Shown here piece after piece: positions 11,621 through 25,911 of a stretch of DNA of 31,272 nucleotides. Every line of letters starts with the position of its first letter. Position 1 is the stretch's first letter. Position numbers and translations under genes: made by a program. A model generated the notes under the pieces. That model was not told the DNA's origin and did no database searches. It saw only the letters and a list, made by a program, of their open reading frames with translations. The DNA is from a virus. The stretch covers positions 1 to 31,272 of the IMG/VR virus record IMGVR_UViG_3300042465_002156; one strand, 5' to 3'.

Positions 11621-14116
11621 ATGGATTATACAGACTTTATTAAGCAGAAAATCAAAATGGCGCATTTTGGTGGTTTTGATGTCGAACAAGATGAATTGAA
11701 TCCGATTCTTAAACCGCATCAAAAAGACATTGTGCAATGGGCAATACAGGGCGGTAACCGCGCCATATTTGCAAGCTTTGGCCTTGGCAAATCGGTTATG
11801 CAGATTGAATGGATGGGGCAAACTATCCGTTTAGCCGGCGGTAAAGGCTTGATTATTGCACCGTTAGGAGTTCGACAAGAGTTGATGCGTGATGCTCGTA
11901 TGTTGGGTTATGAACTGCGCTTTATCCGATTGGAGTCTGAGATTACGGAAGACCATCATTTGTATATTACAAACTACGAAACCGTGCGAGATGGTAAGTT
12001 GCCTACTAGCTGTTTTACTGCAATTAGTCTCGATGAAGCGAGCGTGTTGCGTAGCTATGGCAGTAAGACATATCAAGAATTTCTCCCCATGTTTGCCGGT
12101 ATTAAATACAAACTGGTAAACACTGCTACGCCATCGCCGAATCGTTTTAAAGAGCTTATTCATTACGCTGGGTTTTTAGGTGCAATGGATACCGGCCAAG
12201 CCTTAACGCGCTTTTTCCAGCGCGATAGTACCCAAGCTAACAACTTGACGCTGTACCCGCATAAAGAACAAGAGTTCTGGTTATGGGTGTCGAGCTGGGC
12301 TATCTTTGCGCAAAAACCGTCGGACTTAGGTCATAGTGATGAAGGCTACGACTTGCCAGAGATCGAGGTTAACTATCATGAGATTGATAGTGATTACACC
12401 AAAGCAGGATTCGAGCCTAACGGGCAAAATCTACTATTTCACAATCCGGCGCTTGGTTTATCAGCAGCCTGCCGCGAAAAGCGCGATAGCTTAGTTGATC
12501 GAGTGCAAAAAGTTAAAGAGATTATTGATGCTGCGCCTGATGATCATTTTGTAATATGGCACGACTTAGAAGCCGAGCGACAAGCCATTCAAAAAGCCAT
12601 ACCTGATGCTGTTAGCGTATGGGGTACGCAAGATTTAGACCAGCGGGAAGAGCGCATTGTAGGCTTTGGTGATGGTACTTTTCGCATACTTTCAACCAAG
12701 CCGATTATTGCCGGCTCAGGTTGTAACTTTCAGAAACATTGCCACCGTGAAATATTTGCCGGGATTGGATTTAAGTTTAACGACTTTATACAAGCAATTC
12801 ACCGCGTGCAACGTTTCGGACAAACCAAAAAGGTAATTATTGACGTGATTCACAGCGAAGCAGAGCGCGAAGTTCTGCGAGTTCTTTTGGAAAAATGGCA
12901 ACAACATAAAAAACTGGTAAATAACATGCAAGAAATAATCAAACAATTCGGCCTTAACCAACTGGCTATGAAAGACAAGCTCACTCGCACAATTGGCATT
13001 AAACGCATTGCAGTGACAAGTGATCGTTTTTGTGTGGCAAATAATGATTGTGTTGCAGAAGCTAAAGTACGCGATACCGACAGCGTTGGCCTGATTGTGA
13101 CAAGCATCCCATTTGCTAACCACTACGAATACAGCCCCAGCTACAACGACTTTGGCCACACTGAAAGCAATGATCAATTTTGGGGTCAGATGGATTACTT
13201 AACCCCCGAATTGTTGCGCATGTTGCAGCCTGGGCGCATTTACGCCTGCCACGTTAAAGATCGAATCTTATTCGGCAATGTTACAGGTGCAGGTGCACCA
13301 ACTGTAAGCCCGTTCCACTGCGAAGCCATCATGCACGGCATTAAACATGGTTTCGACTACATGGGATTGATTACAGTTATCACTGATGTGGTGCGAGAAA
13401 ACAATCAAACCTATCGTTTAGGATGGTCTGAGAATGCCAAAGATGGAACCAAGATGGGCGTAGGTTCGCCTGAATACGTGATACTTTTTCGCAAGCCACA
13501 AACCGACCGCTCTAAAGGTTATGCTGATGTACCTGTTGCAAAGTCTAAAGATAAATACACCCGCGCCCATTGGCAAGTTGACGCGCATTCATTCTGGCGT
13601 AGCAGTGGCAATCGTCAATTGACCGCTGAAGACTTGGCAGGCCTTGGCCCAGATAAATTAGCAAGCATGTTTACAAAGTATTCTTTGCAGAATATTTACG
13701 ACTACGAATTCCACGTAAAGTTAGGGGTTGAATTGGAAAAACGAGGTGCATTGCCCTCTACGTTTATGAGCCTTGCCCCCGGTAGCCACCATCCTGACGT
13801 TTGGCATGATGTTGTGCGCATGATTACGCTAAACAGTGACCAAAGCAAACGCGCTGTCGAAAAGCACGTATGCCCGCTACAGTTTGACATTGTTGACCGC
13901 TTGATTGATAGATATAGCAACGTTAACGAGCTGGTGTATGACCCATTCTGTGGCCTTGGAACTGTACCTTATCGCGCCATTCTTAAAGGTCGCACTGGTG
14001 GAGGCTCTGAGTTAAACCCAGCTTACTTTACAGATCAAGTGCATTATTTACGATCTGCCGAACGTGAATTTAGCATGCCGTCATTGTTTGACATCTTGGA
14101 AGACGAAACATCCTAA
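11621..14116 (+). CDS. SNF2-type helicase fused to a DNA methyltransferase
   Basis: An 831-residue two-domain enzyme. Residues 1 to about 440 form an SF2/SNF2-like ATPase: Walker A SFGLGKS (52-58), motif II DEAS (138-141), motif III NTATPSP (167-173) and motif VI QAIHRVQRFGQTKK (391-404), the last typical of SNF2 proteins. Residues about 465-831 are a DNA methyltransferase of permuted order: a motif IV-like TSIPF (494-498, first proline of the usual SPPY replaced by I), then RENNQTYRLGW, and the AdoMet-binding motif DPFCGLGT (774-781) with SELNPAYF. It probably methylates adenine N6 or cytosine N4 while tracking on DNA. No endonuclease domain is visible, so a host-mimicking or anti-restriction role fits better than restriction. 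AAGGAAA precedes the ATG. This is the largest gene of the early operon. Confidence 0.85.
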   Translation: MDYTDFIKQKIKMAHFGGFDVEQDELNPILKPHQKDIVQWAIQGGNRAIFASFGLGKSVMQIEWMGQTIRLAGGKGLIIAPLGVRQELMRDARMLGYELRFIRLESEITEDHHLYITNYETVRDGKLPTSCFTAISLDEASVLRSYGSKTYQEFLPMFAGIKYKLVNTATPSPNRFKELIHYAGFLGAMDTGQALTRFFQRDSTQANNLTLYPHKEQEFWLWVSSWAIFAQKPSDLGHSDEGYDLPEIEVNYHEIDSDYTKAGFEPNGQNLLFHNPALGLSAACREKRDSLVDRVQKVKEIIDAAPDDHFVIWHDLEAERQAIQKAIPDAVSVWGTQDLDQREERIVGFGDGTFRILSTKPIIAGSGCNFQKHCHREIFAGIGFKFNDFIQAIHRVQRFGQTKKVIIDVIHSEAEREVLRVLLEKWQQHKKLVNNMQEIIKQFGLNQLAMKDKLTRTIGIKRIAVTSDRFCVANNDCVAEAKVRDTDSVGLIVTSIPFANHYEYSPSYNDFGHTESNDQFWGQMDYLTPELLRMLQPGRIYACHVKDRILFGNVTGAGAPTVSPFHCEAIMHGIKHGFDYMGLITVITDVVRENNQTYRLGWSENAKDGTKMGVGSPEYVILFRKPQTDRSKGYADVPVAKSKDKYTRAHWQVDAHSFWRSSGNRQLTAEDLAGLGPDKLASMFTKYSLQNIYDYEFHVKLGVELEKRGALPSTFMSLAPGSHHPDVWHDVVRMITLNSDQSKRAVEKHVCPLQFDIVDRLIDRYSNVNELVYDPFCGLGTVPYRAILKGRTGGGSELNPAYFTDQVHYLRSAEREFSMPSLFDILEDETS

Positions 14117-20060: not shown

Positions 20061-20686
20061 ACGTCAAATTAGTATGGGCTACGCCCGAAGCCGACAAAAT
20101 GATTGCAGAGATTGCGCGGGTATCCAATCCCGACAATCAAAAGAACCCCAACATCGAGGGGTTGTTGAAGTACATGATGCGCGAGGGACACGTAAGCCCT
20201 TTCGAGATGGCTAACGCTTGCGTCGAGATTACGACTACACGCGATATTGGCAGGCAGATTTTGCGCCATCGCAGTTTTAATTTTCAAGAGTTCAGCGGAA
20301 GATACCAAAGCTATGACAAGTTGCCTGATGCGCCGTTACGCGAGTGTCGATTGCAAGATACTAAGAACCGTCAGAACAGTATTGCCACTGATGACTACGA
20401 GCTAACCCAGACATGGGAACTAGCCCAACAAACCATATTAAAAGAAGCGCATACCGCTTACCAATGGGCACTTGAACAAGGAATTGCCAAAGAGCAGGCA
20501 AGGGCGTTACTGCCCGAAGGCCTAACTGCTTCTAGGCTTTACATGAATGGGAATTTGCGGAGTTGGATTCACTACCTACAAAGCAGACTGCATAAGTCAA
20601 CTCAAAAAGAACATCGAGATATTGCTGTGCAAATATTGAGTATTTTGAGTGATGTTGCGCCTATAACTATGGAAGCGTTTTTTTAA
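20057..20686 (+). CDS. thyX: FAD-dependent thymidylate synthase
   Basis: A 209-residue ThyX that makes dTMP from dUMP with methylenetetrahydrofolate and NADPH. The diagnostic RHRx7S motif is complete: R70-H71-R72 followed by S80 in RHRSFNFQEFSGRY. The C-terminal NLRSWIHYLQSRL and EHRDIAVQI carry the expected substrate-binding arginines. It supplies dTMP for phage DNA synthesis. It is the last gene of the rightward operon, overlaps the previous gene by four bases and has AAAGGA upstream. Its stop overlaps the convergent endolysin by four bases, and a terminator follows. Confidence 0.95.
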   Translation: MNVKLVWATPEADKMIAEIARVSNPDNQKNPNIEGLLKYMMREGHVSPFEMANACVEITTTRDIGRQILRHRSFNFQEFSGRYQSYDKLPDAPLRECRLQDTKNRQNSIATDDYELTQTWELAQQTILKEAHTAYQWALEQGIAKEQARALLPEGLTASRLYMNGNLRSWIHYLQSRLHKSTQKEHRDIAVQILSILSDVAPITMEAFF

Positions 20687-21147
20687 GCAACTAAGCCGGT
20701 AAGATAGATAGTCTTACCATCTTTTTTGATAGCGGTTAAAGCCTGATTTTTTAGGCTTTTAGGGTCATACGATACATGCACCCAGCCGCTATGCGGATTT
20801 CCCATTACGTAGAATTCTAAAATTACTTGCGTAAACTTTAGATTGTGCAATATCCAATTTGCTAAATCATAATTAGAGATACCTGGCACTTCAATGTCCG
20901 CTGCAAAACCTTGCATATGGTCTGATGTTTTAGAGCCTCCAACGGCTTTATTAACTGCAGGACTACGATAACCACTGCTAATTTTTACCGGCTTTTCGTA
21001 ATGCTCGCGTATAGGCTGCAATACGTTAATAACCAATTCTCGCAGATTCTGCAATATTCCTTGCGTTGGTGTATTGTCTAAATTGTTGCGTAAAGCAATA
21101 TCGCTTTTTATCAATTCAAGCAATGTAAAATTTTCGCTAAGTTTCAT
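20683..21147 (-). CDS. Endolysin, peptidase M15 family
   Basis: A 154-residue single-domain D,D-/L,D-carboxypeptidase-like lysin. Zinc ligands are H77 and D84 in SDHMQGFAADIE and H124 in GWVHVSYD; the KISSGYRSPAVN segment (55-66) is also typical of M15_3. It cuts peptide links in host peptidoglycan. No signal peptide, so it needs the holin encoded four bases upstream in overlap. Its 3' coding part contains, on the opposite strand, the terminator of the thyX operon. Confidence 0.9.
   Translation of the reverse strand: MKLSENFTLLELIKSDIALRNNLDNTPTQGILQNLRELVINVLQPIREHYEKPVKISSGYRSPAVNKAVGGSKTSDHMQGFAADIEVPGISNYDLANWILHNLKFTQVILEFYVMGNPHSGWVHVSYDPKSLKNQALTAIKKDGKTIYLTGLVA
20698..20727 (+). terminator. 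Intrinsic terminator of the rightward operon
   Basis: GGTAAGA-TAGATAG-TCTTACC (20698-20718) followed by ATC and six T. It lies 12 bases past the thyX stop and entirely within the antisense end of the endolysin gene. Confidence 0.7.
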
Positions 21148-21554
21148 TTTTTAGTTCTCATATCTGCTAATTTTTCTACAGTTCTACCGCCAAAGTATGC
21201 CAAAAATATGATCTGCCCCCATTGGCCTAGCAACTGCACATATGATTCTTGAGCGTTGTAACCGTAGGCAGACATAAATGTAAATAGAAAATACGCCACA
21301 AAGATAGCTATAAGCGCCATAGGGCGTATATTTTTAGATAGCCAACTATCACTAGCCATGTCGGCTTTCCATCGGTCTGATACGGCTGTATGTTCAATCT
21401 CAAATAGCTTTGTATCGTTAGCCATCTTTGCTAATTCGCCATCCTGCGCCATTACAGCTAATTCCATTTGCGCCTTAGCTTTGGCCTCAGGGTCTGGTAT
21501 TAACTTGTCAATGAGTTTTCCGCCTACGGTTAACAGTGCATCTAAACCAAACAT
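21144..21554 (-). CDS. Holin, 3TM/GTA-holin-like
   Basis: A 136-residue membrane protein. The N-terminal amphipathic part (ALLTVGGKLIDKLIPDPEAKAKAQ) is typical of the GTA_holin_3TM family, and two hydrophobic spans follow at about 77-96 and 105-123. It would form the inner-membrane lesion that releases the endolysin. AAAGG precedes the ATG, and the stop overlaps the endolysin start by four bases. The family is inferred from its signature DK.IPDP..KA.A and helix layout. Confidence 0.82.
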   Translation of the reverse strand: MFGLDALLTVGGKLIDKLIPDPEAKAKAQMELAVMAQDGELAKMANDTKLFEIEHTAVSDRWKADMASDSWLSKNIRPMALIAIFVAYFLFTFMSAYGYNAQESYVQLLGQWGQIIFLAYFGGRTVEKLADMRTKK

Positions 21555-21564
21555 ATAAAACCTT

Positions 21565-22326
21565 TCAAGGCGAAGCCTTTAAATTGTAAAGCCGCAATGT
21601 GTCTAATACCTCGCCGCGCAATTGCAACCGGCGCAAAGCATCCACCATGCGAGCGTATAAATCCTTGTACTTGCTTTTTTTGCTTACACCAAAGCCGTAG
21701 GTAATCTGCTTAATGTCTCCGGCAACTCTTGGCCCAATGATTGAATGCTTTTTAAGCAAAGCCAAACCAACATCTTTATTAACCACTACCGCGCCATTGG
21801 CACCATATTTTCCCGTGATTAAATGCTGGTAACTGGCAACAATGCTTGGTTCGATTACCAGATTAAAACCATCAAAGCCCATAGCTATGCGTTTGTCTGC
21901 TACTTCTTTAGCCACAATGCTGGTGCCACTTGGCCCATACGCGCCAACGGTCATACCATCAAGCGTAGACACGCCGCCATATTGCCACGGGTTACGCGAT
22001 GTAACAAAAAAGCTGTAACTGGTGTTTACGATAGATGGAGATAAGTAAAACAACTCTGCACGCTCTGGCACTTCTAGCAAGATAGAAAACACTACATCGG
22101 CTTCACCATCTACCGACTGTTTATAAGCATCTTTCCAAGGCAATAAACTAAACTCACAATTTAGTTTTGCTTCTTTGCATATAGATCGCATGATGGTGTA
22201 CATCGGGCCTTGTATCACGCCATTATGCAAAGTTTGAAAAGGTGGAAAATCCTCTGTAACAATCTTCACGGTCTGCCCATATGCAAACCCTACTGATAGA
22301 AAATAAGCAAGAACGTATTTAATCAT
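21565..22326 (-). CDS. Periplasmic solute-binding protein, family 3-like
   Basis: A 253-residue protein with an N-terminal signal peptide (MIKYVLAYFLSVGFAYG, cleavage likely before QTVKIV) and the fold marks of extracellular solute-binding family 3 (SBP_bac_3): TEDFPPFQ (24-31), GPMYTIMRSICKEAKL, LLPWKDAYKQSVDGEADVVFS, PERAELFYLSPS and GMTVGAYGPSGT. There is no lipobox, so it should be free in the periplasm. Cysteines C50 and C57 could pair. I chose the start at 22326 because the signal peptide begins there and it overlaps the upstream gene by eight bases. No permease or ATPase gene is nearby. Such a gene is unusual in a phage and sits directly before the holin, so it is likely expressed late. 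Confidence 0.8.
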   Translation of the reverse strand: MIKYVLAYFLSVGFAYGQTVKIVTEDFPPFQTLHNGVIQGPMYTIMRSICKEAKLNCEFSLLPWKDAYKQSVDGEADVVFSILLEVPERAELFYLSPSIVNTSYSFFVTSRNPWQYGGVSTLDGMTVGAYGPSGTSIVAKEVADKRIAMGFDGFNLVIEPSIVASYQHLITGKYGANGAVVVNKDVGLALLKKHSIIGPRVAGDIKQITYGFGVSKKSKYKDLYARMVDALRRLQLRGEVLDTLRLYNLKASP

Positions 22327-22762
22327 TCTCAGGCACCTCAAAACATAAATCAGGTAGCTTTGCACTATGCTTTGCCAAAGACAGCGCAGGTCGCCAATAA
22401 ACCACCGTATTGCTGCACCATGCGCCCGTCATGTGTGGTGGTAGTATGATAGACCGCAATACGACATAATCCCCTACTTGGTTAACTATTACGCCGCCTT
22501 CAACTGCAACGCTTTGGCCGCCGTTGTATTGCCGGTGCAAAGTACGATAGATGGTTAGCTCGGATATATCTGTTCCAACAAAGCCTCGGCTTTCAACCAA
22601 TATATTGTTACCATCTTTTTTAGTTACCATAGTAACGCTGTCAGAGGTTGTAAATGGCGTTGATGATGTAGTAGTAATGTAAACAATAACGCCTAAAAAC
22701 AACGTGCATACAAAACTAAACCATCCACCAAGCCTAATAATCCAATGGGCTTGTAAACTCAT
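22319..22762 (-). CDS. Membrane-anchored protein of the lysis region
   Basis: A 147-residue protein with one N-terminal transmembrane helix (about 11-30, LGGWFSFVCTLFLGVIVYIT) and a C-terminal domain predicted in the periplasm (SDSVTMVTKKDGNNILVESRGFVG, then VVLRSIILPPHMTGAWCSNTVVYWRP). Two cysteines (C116, C140) could form a disulfide. No family recognised. It overlaps neighbours by 4 and 8 bases and sits upstream of the solute-binding protein, so the two may cooperate in the envelope; spanin function is not supported by sequence. Confidence 0.65.
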   Translation of the reverse strand: MSLQAHWIIRLGGWFSFVCTLFLGVIVYITTTSSTPFTTSDSVTMVTKKDGNNILVESRGFVGTDISELTIYRTLHRQYNGGQSVAVEGGVIVNQVGDYVVLRSIILPPHMTGAWCSNTVVYWRPALSLAKHSAKLPDLCFEVPEND

Positions 22763-23163
22763 TTTTTAACCTCTGTTATAGCTGGCGCTGGTGTTGGTGT
22801 AGTAATACTAGCAGCTTGCACCCATTCTTTAAACTTAGCCTGACTACCCAATGCAAACAGTGCCGCAATAAAAACAACGGCTGCTGTTAAGCCTTTTTTC
22901 ATAATGTCATCGCGGAAAGAGCGCCAAAACTTTTTACGCTCGTTGGATGCTTCTTCGCGTTTATTTAACATTACATGTACGTCATGGTGTTTTTTAATAT
23001 TACCATCTGGTGTTGCTTTAGTCATGGTGTCATGCAACGCATCTACTTTTTCGGTTAATTTATCCATTTTGTTAGCCTGTTCAGTTAATGCAGTTCTAAC
23101 CCAATTACTAGCTTCACGATTTTCTCCGCGTCGCTCAAATTCATGTGGTAATTCTTCGCTCAT
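22759..23163 (-). CDS. Coiled-coil single-pass membrane protein
   Basis: A 134-residue protein: a polar N-terminus, a heptad-like helix (NWVRTALTEQANKMDKLTEKVDALHDTM, 20-47), a basic linker (NKREEASNERKKFWRSFRDDIMKK), a transmembrane span (about 91-107, GLTAAVVFIAALFALGS) and a short Pro/Thr-rich tail. The design resembles phage XhlA-like or antiholin-type accessory lysis proteins. A holin-partner role is a guess from context. Confidence 0.65.
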   Translation of the reverse strand: MSEELPHEFERRGENREASNWVRTALTEQANKMDKLTEKVDALHDTMTKATPDGNIKKHHDVHVMLNKREEASNERKKFWRSFRDDIMKKGLTAAVVFIAALFALGSQAKFKEWVQAASITTPTPAPAITEVKK

Positions 23164-23573
23164 TTTTGAAACAATCCAACAATAAGTTTAGACAATATGA
23201 CAATGCGATTAATGCGCTTGCCATAAACGTGGCCTGTCTTTGTAAAAAAATCAAATTTAGACATTGCCGACAATGTGTGATTGTCAAACCATAAATCTGC
23301 AATAGATGCAACACAATGATTAATTGATTCTGCACCATTTGATTTTACAAAATGCAATTCATAACGTCCAGTAAAAACCAAATGCCAGATAAAAGTAGCA
23401 ATGCTTTTATTAGCCATTAACCAAAAAACGGTTAAGGAAAAGTCTTCGCAATCGCCATAATAAAAGCCATTTGTTTTAGGTTTCATTACAAACCAAGCAT
23501 CACGCAATAACGTAATGTCTGGTTCATAAATAAACTTTTCAGCTACGGTATCAATTGCATCTTCTAAAATCAT
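23160..23573 (-). CDS. Transglutaminase-like cysteine peptidase
   Basis: A 137-residue papain-fold enzyme candidate. The signature YYGDCEDFSLTVFWLM puts the nucleophile at C42, with H86 in SINHCVAS and D97 in LWFDNHT as the rest of the triad; the pattern matches bacterial transglutaminase-like cysteine proteinases (BTLCP). No signal peptide. In phages, such small proteins are found near tail or lysis genes and may cleave peptide cross-links or process virion proteins. Overlaps of four bases on both sides place it in the lysis operon. Confidence 0.72.
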   Translation of the reverse strand: MILEDAIDTVAEKFIYEPDITLLRDAWFVMKPKTNGFYYGDCEDFSLTVFWLMANKSIATFIWHLVFTGRYELHFVKSNGAESINHCVASIADLWFDNHTLSAMSKFDFFTKTGHVYGKRINRIVILSKLIVGLFQK

Positions 23574-24252: not shown

Positions 24253-25911
24253 TCATTTACCAACCCATCCGGTGTTACCAGAACCAGATTCTTTGACGTA
24301 CAGCGAAGTTCCCGCACCTCCGTCTGTACGCATATACAAGCTACCAACACCTGCTGTAATTGCGCTTTCAGGCGTTCCACGCCCTTTCATCACAAACACC
24401 GTGTCGTAGGTATTGCCTGCGTCATATCGAGCGGCCAATTTAATCGCGCCGCGAGTTTGAACCATGTCACCATCCGCATCAATTTGCCTGAAATTAAAAG
24501 AGCAAGCGTGATCGAACGCAAACCCAGTATTTCCAACATTGATCTTGGCTGCCGTAGTTGAACTGTCGTACAAATCAAATTCACCGCCAACCCCAAGCAC
24601 ACGCATTGCAATCGTTTCAGTCAACGAGTTGCTGTACTCCTTAACATAGTTGGTGCCTTCAATGACGTTCATATCAACGATTAGTTGTCTATCTGCGTAG
24701 TCAGCGCCTGGAGTAACAACTAACGAAGTGGAAAATGTCAGTCCATCAAAATACTCTTGTCTATTGTGAATGAATCTATTACTTCCGTTATTTGTATTAA
24801 TAAGAATAATGTGTTGACCTTCATAAATACCGCCAACACGGGCGTTTCTAACTGCAAATAAATTTTTTGTGACAATATTACGCACGTTTTCTAAAATACC
24901 GCTGTACGAATAAAACACAATGTTTCCAGCTTGATCTGGCGCAGGTGCAATTTGAGAACCCGGTGATAGGTTACTAAATTTATTATCTTGAATAACACTC
25001 AACTTGCAACCACCATTTAACTTTACGCTAGCGAATTGTGACTCAATCCAATTATCCGAAATGACCCACTCACGAGCATTTTCAAGAAGTAAACCTATGC
25101 CGGGGCGGTTAGGGCCACCAATCCCATTCGGGTAGTCAAAAATGTCGCCTGTGCTTGGTGAAGTCAAGTTTGCTTCGATTAAGCATTGCGTAACACTGTT
25201 TCCCCAAACTTCGCTAACTTCACCGCCACTAGGCGCTCCAGTTATTCCTTGCACAGCAAAACCTTGGCAATACACACCAATGGCGTTGTGCTTAATGCGA
25301 CATTTGTCAATACGAATACCATTGTTAAAGCAGGGCACAGGGCCAGTGGTTATGACTCCAGAATTTGACAAACGAATACCAGAAGCGCAGTTGTACTGGA
25401 TGTCGCAGTTGGTGATGGTTGAGCCAGTTGAGCCGTTGAGAACAATGCCTTCTGCGGCCATGTAAGTGACAGCAACACGGTCAATCAAAAACTTGACAAT
25501 GTTTAGACCACCGGATGCGTTGGCGCAAGTCACAAGAACGCCGACTTGATTAACCAACGATGGGTTTAATGGTATTTGGCCGCGAACTTGGAAGTTGTCA
25601 ATTTGGGTAGTAAACGGAACGTTTGCGCCTGCTGGATCAGTGTTAACCAGCACAACGCCGGGGGCATTGCTGCCGGTTGCGATTTGCAACACCGACTCGT
25701 ACATACCTGAGCCAAACAGCCGCTGTGCTGCATCCACACGAATTGTGGTAATTTTAAAAGTGCCCGGTGGAATGTAAACGCTATCGGCAGCATCAAGTGC
25801 CGCTTGAATTGCGGTTGTGCTATTTTCAGATCCCGTGGGGTCTGCGCCGTAATCAATAATGTTGGCTACAGCACCAGCAATCATTGAATAGGAAACTTTG
25901 GTCAAAGACAT
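24253..25911 (-). CDS. Tailspike/fiber with pectate-lyase-like beta-helix
   Basis: A 552-residue receptor-binding protein. Residues 17-60 (NIIDYGADPTGSENSTTAIQAALDA then SVYIPPGTFKI) are the classic opening of the Pectate_lyase_3 beta-helix. Repeated turns with GI.L...S..TITNCDIQYN, IRIDKCRIKHN and WVISDNWIES fill the middle. The C-terminus from about 510 carries AGVGSLYMRTDGGAGTSLYV and GWVGK, a short module common at the end of fibers in aquatic phages. It lacks its own head-binding domain, which seems to be on the separate protein upstream. It probably binds and may cleave surface polysaccharide. Confidence 0.85.
   Translation of the reverse strand: MSLTKVSYSMIAGAVANIIDYGADPTGSENSTTAIQAALDAADSVYIPPGTFKITTIRVDAAQRLFGSGMYESVLQIATGSNAPGVVLVNTDPAGANVPFTTQIDNFQVRGQIPLNPSLVNQVGVLVTCANASGGLNIVKFLIDRVAVTYMAAEGIVLNGSTGSTITNCDIQYNCASGIRLSNSGVITTGPVPCFNNGIRIDKCRIKHNAIGVYCQGFAVQGITGAPSGGEVSEVWGNSVTQCLIEANLTSPSTGDIFDYPNGIGGPNRPGIGLLLENAREWVISDNWIESQFASVKLNGGCKLSVIQDNKFSNLSPGSQIAPAPDQAGNIVFYSYSGILENVRNIVTKNLFAVRNARVGGIYEGQHIILINTNNGSNRFIHNRQEYFDGLTFSTSLVVTPGADYADRQLIVDMNVIEGTNYVKEYSNSLTETIAMRVLGVGGEFDLYDSSTTAAKINVGNTGFAFDHACSFNFRQIDADGDMVQTRGAIKLAARYDAGNTYDTVFVMKGRGTPESAITAGVGSLYMRTDGGAGTSLYVKESGSGNTGWVGK

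Follow-up and report, generated by a model that had tools for sequence, protein, structure and literature searches.

The closest described relatives of the protein reported here are the amino-acid binding proteins of solute-binding family 3 (SBP_bac_3), such as ArgBP, NocT, the GlnP SBDs and HisJ/LAO. Solute-binding proteins that dock on membrane receptors represent a general mode of signalling (PMC9602780), with chemoreceptors, sensor kinases and cyclases among the receptors. In phages, PstS binding proteins have been documented as auxiliary genes (PMC10976474, PMC10987575). Two further systems resemble parts of the present locus: phage T4 controls its holin with RI, an antiholin that has a cleavable signal peptide and is soluble in the periplasm (PMC8385771), and the membrane co-sensors VtrA/VtrC are encoded by overlapping genes (PMC9214523).

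The window examined here is a stretch of 31,272 nucleotides (positions 1 to 31,272 of IMG/VR virus record IMGVR_UViG_3300042465_002156) that carries a P22-type coat gene, portal and terminase. It encodes a family 3 solute-binding protein (SBP), whose gene comes last in a cassette of three overlapping genes, A-B-SBP, and is more than a stray capture. SBP resembles the amino-acid binding proteins named above in profile, signal peptide, match across both lobes and, by alignment, the arginine for the ligand carboxylate, but differs in being phage-borne, in having no permease, in being tied to A and B, and in having N183 aligned with the canonical Asp, an Asn that the standalone cellular relatives share. 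The PstS proteins of cyanophages and soil phages are likewise phage-encoded periplasmic binding proteins without a whole transporter; however, they belong to another family of binding proteins and are regarded as uptake auxiliaries, rather than as members of a set in the lysis region that includes two membrane proteins of its own. Receptor signalling shares with our proposal the logic of a soluble SBP that docks on a membrane protein at its periplasmic domain, whereas the output proposed for the cassette is lysis or the envelope. The T4 antiholins RI/RIII, like the proposed cassette, combine a soluble periplasmic signal-peptide protein with a cytoplasmic partner acting on the holin, but RI, a small protein, is thought to have phage DNA as its signal, while the cassette has a predicted two-lobe binding protein and an extra membrane-anchored protein, B, and no sequence relation between RI and SBP was found. 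VtrA/VtrC and ToxR/ToxS are membrane-tethered periplasmic sensor partners with overlapping genes, one partner being beta-rich, as predicted for B in the cassette; the likeness is one of arrangement, with no homology shown, and these systems drive a DNA-binding domain whereas A matched no DNA-binding family. Phage-encoded SBPs are already known as a kind, through PstS, but neither the annotated phage genomes nor the open-access papers searched yielded a lysis-linked SBP with two membrane partners.

The three genes and their products

The features of the locus are listed in Table 1. Neighbouring genes are tightly packed: A and B overlap by 4 bp, B and SBP by 8 bp, and the 137 aa gene overlaps A by 4 bp. 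The gene for the 3TM holin begins 10 bp past the SBP stop and is followed by the M15 endolysin gene, with a 4 bp overlap. The preliminary description had set SBP between a membrane protein and the holin, and read it as a phage SBP in a lysis cluster; the adjacency and that reading stand, but the neighbour proves to be the second of two membrane proteins with overlapping genes, and the conserved cassette to which SBP belongs had been missed.

Table 1. Features of the A-B-SBP locus and adjoining genes in the window
Feature	Position	Strand	Evidence and remarks
137 aa protein of unknown function	23160..23573	minus	shared-gene comparison; just upstream of A
A, 134 aa	22759..23163	minus	alignment, hydropathy; charged N-terminal part, membrane helix near residues 87-110, short C-terminal tail
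B, 147 aa	22319..22762	minus	alignment, AF2, hydropathy; N-terminal membrane helix, predicted periplasmic beta-sandwich
SBP, 253 aa family 3 solute-binding protein	21565..22326	minus	Pfam SBP_bac_3, PDB profile matches, Foldseek
Predicted cleavable signal peptide of SBP, MIKYVLAYFLSVGFAYG, without lipobox	22276..22326	minus	sequence read directly
Holin, GTA_holin_3TM / phrog_3427	21144..21554	minus	PF11351 3.3e-9; phrog_3427 2.5e-25
Endolysin, peptidase M15	20683..21147	minus	PF08291 7e-22; phrog_894 2.8e-47

The SBP gene starts with ATG at 22326 and its stop codon occupies 21565-21567; the plus-strand frame across the same interval is full of stops. A longer reading frame with a GTG start at 22365 (266 aa) was set aside, as the signal peptide fits the ATG at 22326, and most homologues start at the equivalent position. 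The assignment as a signal-peptide protein of family 3, made earlier from the sequence, was borne out: SBP matched Pfam SBP_bac_3 (PF00497) at 5e-13 and 49.4 bits, above the curated cut-off of 26.4, and a profile built from phage and cellular SBP homologues matched solved family 3 proteins across both lobes, the best being AncQR (5.7e-15) and arginine-binding protein (7.5e-14). Profile searches of Pfam, PHROG and NCBIfam matched only SBP families, and the PHROG hit (1.7e-12) is of unknown function. An AF2 model from 11 similar phage sequences has a weak second lobe (mean pLDDT 54), and with this weak model Foldseek ranks family 3 binding proteins first. The signal peptide is readable as MIKYVLAYFLSVGFAYG, with Q as the residue after the cleavage point, and the lipobox Cys is absent; in the alignment, every SBP homologue lacks a Cys at the cleavage region. 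Hydropathy gives no strong membrane segment. SBP is predicted to be soluble in the periplasm after cleavage of its signal peptide, like T4 RI.

For A, alignment and hydropathy place basic residues ahead of the C-terminal membrane helix and, by the positive-inside rule, its charged N-terminal part should face the cytoplasm. The AF2 model of B (pLDDT 79) consists of a helix at residues 3-31 followed by six long strands, and C116 and C140 are invariant in the alignment. Neither protein matched a family above threshold in Pfam, NCBIfam or PADLOC, kinase, cyclase and chemoreceptor families included. A Foldseek search of the B model against the PDB gave nothing significant (best 1.4e-3), while a homologue with 59% identity, A0A6J5LAM4, came from BFVD, along with proteins of weak resemblance, phiRSL1 B2ZY60 among them.

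Within SBP, R89, T135, F27 and W64 are invariant among the aligned phage proteins. From knowledge of LAO/HisJ and the alignment, we take R89 to be the arginine that binds the ligand carboxylate in family 3, and the T135-S136 motif, F27 and W64, all invariant or nearly so, to be other pocket positions; these placements come from sequence alignment, not from a good model. The likewise invariant N183 presumably sits where the canonical Asp binds the alpha-amino group, and this Asn is common to the phage SBPs and the standalone cellular homologues of Stutzerimonas and Pseudomonas, which also share the motif GPSGTS with them. The ligand pocket is probably retained. Because Asp is replaced by N183 although R89 is kept, a plain amino-acid ligand is not to be assumed, and the ligand may be other than an ordinary alpha-amino acid. 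Nothing observed favours a muropeptide.

The 137 aa protein upstream of A had no family match above threshold in Pfam or PHROG. Its gene is present only in the window-type phages described below and in L011, and so lies outside the mobile cassette. A GDCEDFSLT stretch in this protein is reminiscent of transglutaminase-like cysteine peptidases, with no Pfam match.

Distribution, selection and descent

A search of viral contigs with SBP found homologues in 12 contigs, at 66–99% identity, and the order A-B-SBP is kept in all complete loci (the window, 11 viral contigs and one MAG contig). Profiles of A and B detected both genes in every locus whose contig extends far enough, overlapping or nearly so. 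When B and A each served as the seed of an independent scan, the same contigs came back, plus one contig ending just past A, and A or B was seen without its partners only in contigs that end within the cassette. Since the three genes are always together and in order in separately seeded scans, A-B-SBP is a unit, and the question shifts from the ligand of SBP to the role of the protein set. A tblastn search of 50,697 phage records with A, B and SBP gave no match, so that known isolates offer no experimental handle, and the profile of phage and cellular SBPs revealed no additional, more distant phage SBPs of the cassette family. In host genomes, B was found in only one of 394 genomes of the MAG's family and one of 399 of its order, the same MAG both times. 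The contig concerned (L037, 63 kb) is binned with an Oxalobacteraceae MAG but reads as phage throughout, and the binning is at most a hint of an Oxalobacteraceae host.

Every cassette locus lies in a lysis region, although the endolysins, the holins and the rest of the genomes vary. In the window-type phages (terminase 90–98% identical), the cassette precedes a GTA-type holin and M15 endolysin. Downstream of the cassette, other carriers encode GH108 endolysins, esterases or patatins, and holin-like proteins of phrog_3427 or phrog_1544. In L013, where an endolysin was not recognised, a phrog_1544 protein is encoded two genes downstream. The cassette thus accompanies lysis genes of different families, and the check put forward in the preliminary description, whether phage homologues also sit beside holins, showed them beside endolysin/holin genes. 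The carriers are otherwise dissimilar. L009/G008 shares no gene with the window besides the cassette, and L013/G012, which reads as having T4-like replication proteins, has nothing in common with it beyond the cassette and a single weak match to an early gene. L008/G007 and the window share a 1110-aa gene as long as a tape-measure gene, some small early genes and, by reading of the ORF, an integrase-like gene.

The cassette is accessory, since close relatives manage without it. MW202867, whose terminase is 77% identical to that of the window, lacks the cassette; there the slot is filled by tail-related genes and one for a small membrane protein. In many holin relatives, genes for other small membrane proteins occupy this slot upstream of the holin. 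In the cassette-free L078 (2723-4004), and also in L091, L129 and L130, the place directly upstream of the same holin is taken by another conserved set: a protein of 163-174 aa and a membrane-anchored one of 202-203 aa (phrog_31287), accompanied in some cases by a small membrane protein. It seems that different membrane modules can occupy the slot.

All three genes are under purifying selection, SBP strongly: dN/dS was 0.04-0.14 for SBP and 0.07-0.35 for A and B over the computable pairs, many pairs being saturated and the ratios at high dS rough. These low SBP values, together with the 12 viral-contig homologues and the constant gene order, show SBP to be more than a chance acquisition. In the tree, a branch with 100/99 support separates the 12 phage SBPs tested, as one group, from the distant cellular proteins. 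The nearest full-length cellular SBPs are about 27-33% identical to the phage SBPs, and among the 399 genomes of the MAG's order a single cellular SBP matched, at 29% identity. By reading of the Stutzerimonas loci, a directly attached permease is absent, and some have, about 2-3 kb off, an ABC system for amino acids that includes a binding protein of its own. Within the phage SBPs, a fork with 99/94 support unites the window with L008, L012 and the T4-like L013, while L007 and L011 fall outside, yet have a holin and endolysin of the window's kind. Two histories would give this split, transfer of the cassette from one phage type to another or movement of lysis genes around the cassette, and it points to exchange between phage types.

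Possible role of the cassette

We propose, with a probability of roughly 0.42, that A-B-SBP is a periplasmic sensor set that modulates late infection, most likely the timing of lysis. The strict trio, its linkage to lysis genes, the absence of a permease and the selection on the genes argue for an envelope set in which SBP docks on B. Taken with these facts, the precedents of SBP-receptor signalling, VtrA/VtrC and T4 RI lead us to put control of lysis timing first. The three would be phage-specific envelope proteins made late in infection, with A and B in the inner membrane, A towards the cytoplasm and the beta-sandwich of B towards the periplasm. SBP would be exported, cleaved and released as a soluble periplasmic protein that docks on B; its ligand state may report a periplasmic signal, such as a metabolite or a wall fragment, which would pass via B and A to modulate the holin and hence the time of lysis. 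The position of the cassette beside lysis genes suggests that something in the envelope is sensed to control the end of infection. In several phages a hydrolase or other gene lies between SBP and the holin and, as holin types also differ (3TM versus phrog_1544), a single direct SBP-holin contact cannot fit all carriers.

A more specific version, a ligand-gated lysis switch that reads a small molecule through SBP and two membrane proteins and is traded as a module between phage types, is put forward only tentatively and is rather doubtful; if true, lysis control of this kind would be new. The timing of T4 lysis responds to superinfection, but we know of no phage shown to read a periplasmic small molecule with a dedicated binding protein. 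Recurring beside different endolysins and holins, the cassette offers a compact, testable system for such reading.

Among the alternatives, superinfection exclusion comes next, though we consider it unlikely. The envelope proteins would block DNA entry by a second phage, in the late-infected cell or in lysogens of temperate carriers, with SBP binding an incoming tail or injection protein or masking a host envelope protein used for entry. Exclusion proteins commonly have membrane-anchored and periplasmic parts, and the cassette is accessory and found in different phage types, including integrase-bearing ones, all of which would suit such a role. Known exclusion genes, however, are usually early, lysogenic or separately promoted, whereas the cassette sits in the late lysis region at every locus; exclusion would not need invariant ligand-pocket residues, and A, B and SBP had no match in PADLOC, a library mainly of bacterial defence. 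Somewhat less probable again is an accessory part in envelope lysis, mechanical and spanin-like or wall-binding, in which the SBP fold would act as a scaffold or a catcher of murein fragments. A lipobox scan found no lipoprotein-type spanin candidate in the carriers' lysis regions, where SBP too lacks a lipobox, and esterases or phospholipases are added to the cluster in several carriers; but 25 of 30 cassette-free relatives likewise lack a lipoprotein candidate, so the absence is not specific. Moreover, B lacks a lipobox, its predicted fold is a beta-sandwich and not a coiled coil, and an intact two-lobe binding protein would be an odd mechanical part.

The cassette could also be cargo, a moron of benefit to lysogens or to nothing that has settled in a late region where it is tolerated. 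Cargo is often found next to lysis genes in late regions, and the slot upstream of the holin varies among relatives, but strong purifying selection and a three-gene overlap conserved across otherwise different genomes make this improbable, as does the presence of the cassette in G012, which has T4-like replication genes and is of a type that is normally not temperate. We rank lowest, as quite improbable, a metabolic role in which SBP raises amino-acid uptake through a host ABC permease, as proposed for phage PstS and phosphate. PstS itself is a documented precedent (PMC10976474, PMC10987575), and the family to which SBP belongs is predicted to bind amino acids (PMC9602780). Against this, nearby permease genes, reported as lacking in the preliminary description, were indeed absent, the window record having no ABC permease and none of 13 phage records a PF00528 match. 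Homologues are carried by viral contigs without a permease, and are not confined to host loci beside permease genes, as a recent chance capture had been expected to show. The cassette lies in the lysis region at all loci, SBP is strictly linked to A and B, which are phage membrane proteins not found in the host genomes searched, the canonical Asp is, by alignment, replaced by Asn, and the nearest cellular relatives, about 30% identical, are far for sharing a cognate permease. The early doubt about nutrient uptake is upheld by the late position, the missing permease and the strict linkage, and the cassette warns against calling every phage SBP an uptake auxiliary gene.

Further genes of the carrier phages

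Several recurring genes were noted in the lysis clusters of carriers. Lipid-active or esterase-type enzymes include a patatin (L009:6390-7253), an alpha/beta hydrolase (L010:5756-6694) and DUF676-like serine esterases (L012:3176-3979, L013:6763-7566 and L037:6224-7033), of which the Pfam match above threshold was tested in L037 only. A small secreted protein of staphylococcal-nuclease type follows the holin-like region in four carriers (L009:7950-8471, L010:8974-9471, L012:7608-8081 and L037:10889-11362), an assignment tested against Pfam in L009 only. A 152-165 aa protein without a family match, with an end reading ...NRSGxDVWGxYxFSGxYL..., is found repeatedly among the lysis genes of carriers that differ otherwise (L012:6394-6888, L013:5854-6312 and L037:9280-9774). 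The 47-kb contig G007 has an identical SBP 3' end at both of its ends (L173:1-300 and the end of L175), which run on into different endolysin N-termini; either the genome is circular and its endolysin varies, or two variants have been joined.

Elsewhere in the window, an 831 aa ORF on the plus strand (11621-14116) reads as a single protein with a helicase first and then a DNA methyltransferase, the latter with a DPFCGLGT motif. On the minus strand, 24253-25911 encodes a tail-spike-like protein with a pectate-lyase-like beta helix, which is almost wholly different from that of the closely related L003, L005 and L006, while nearby genes are about 90% identical.
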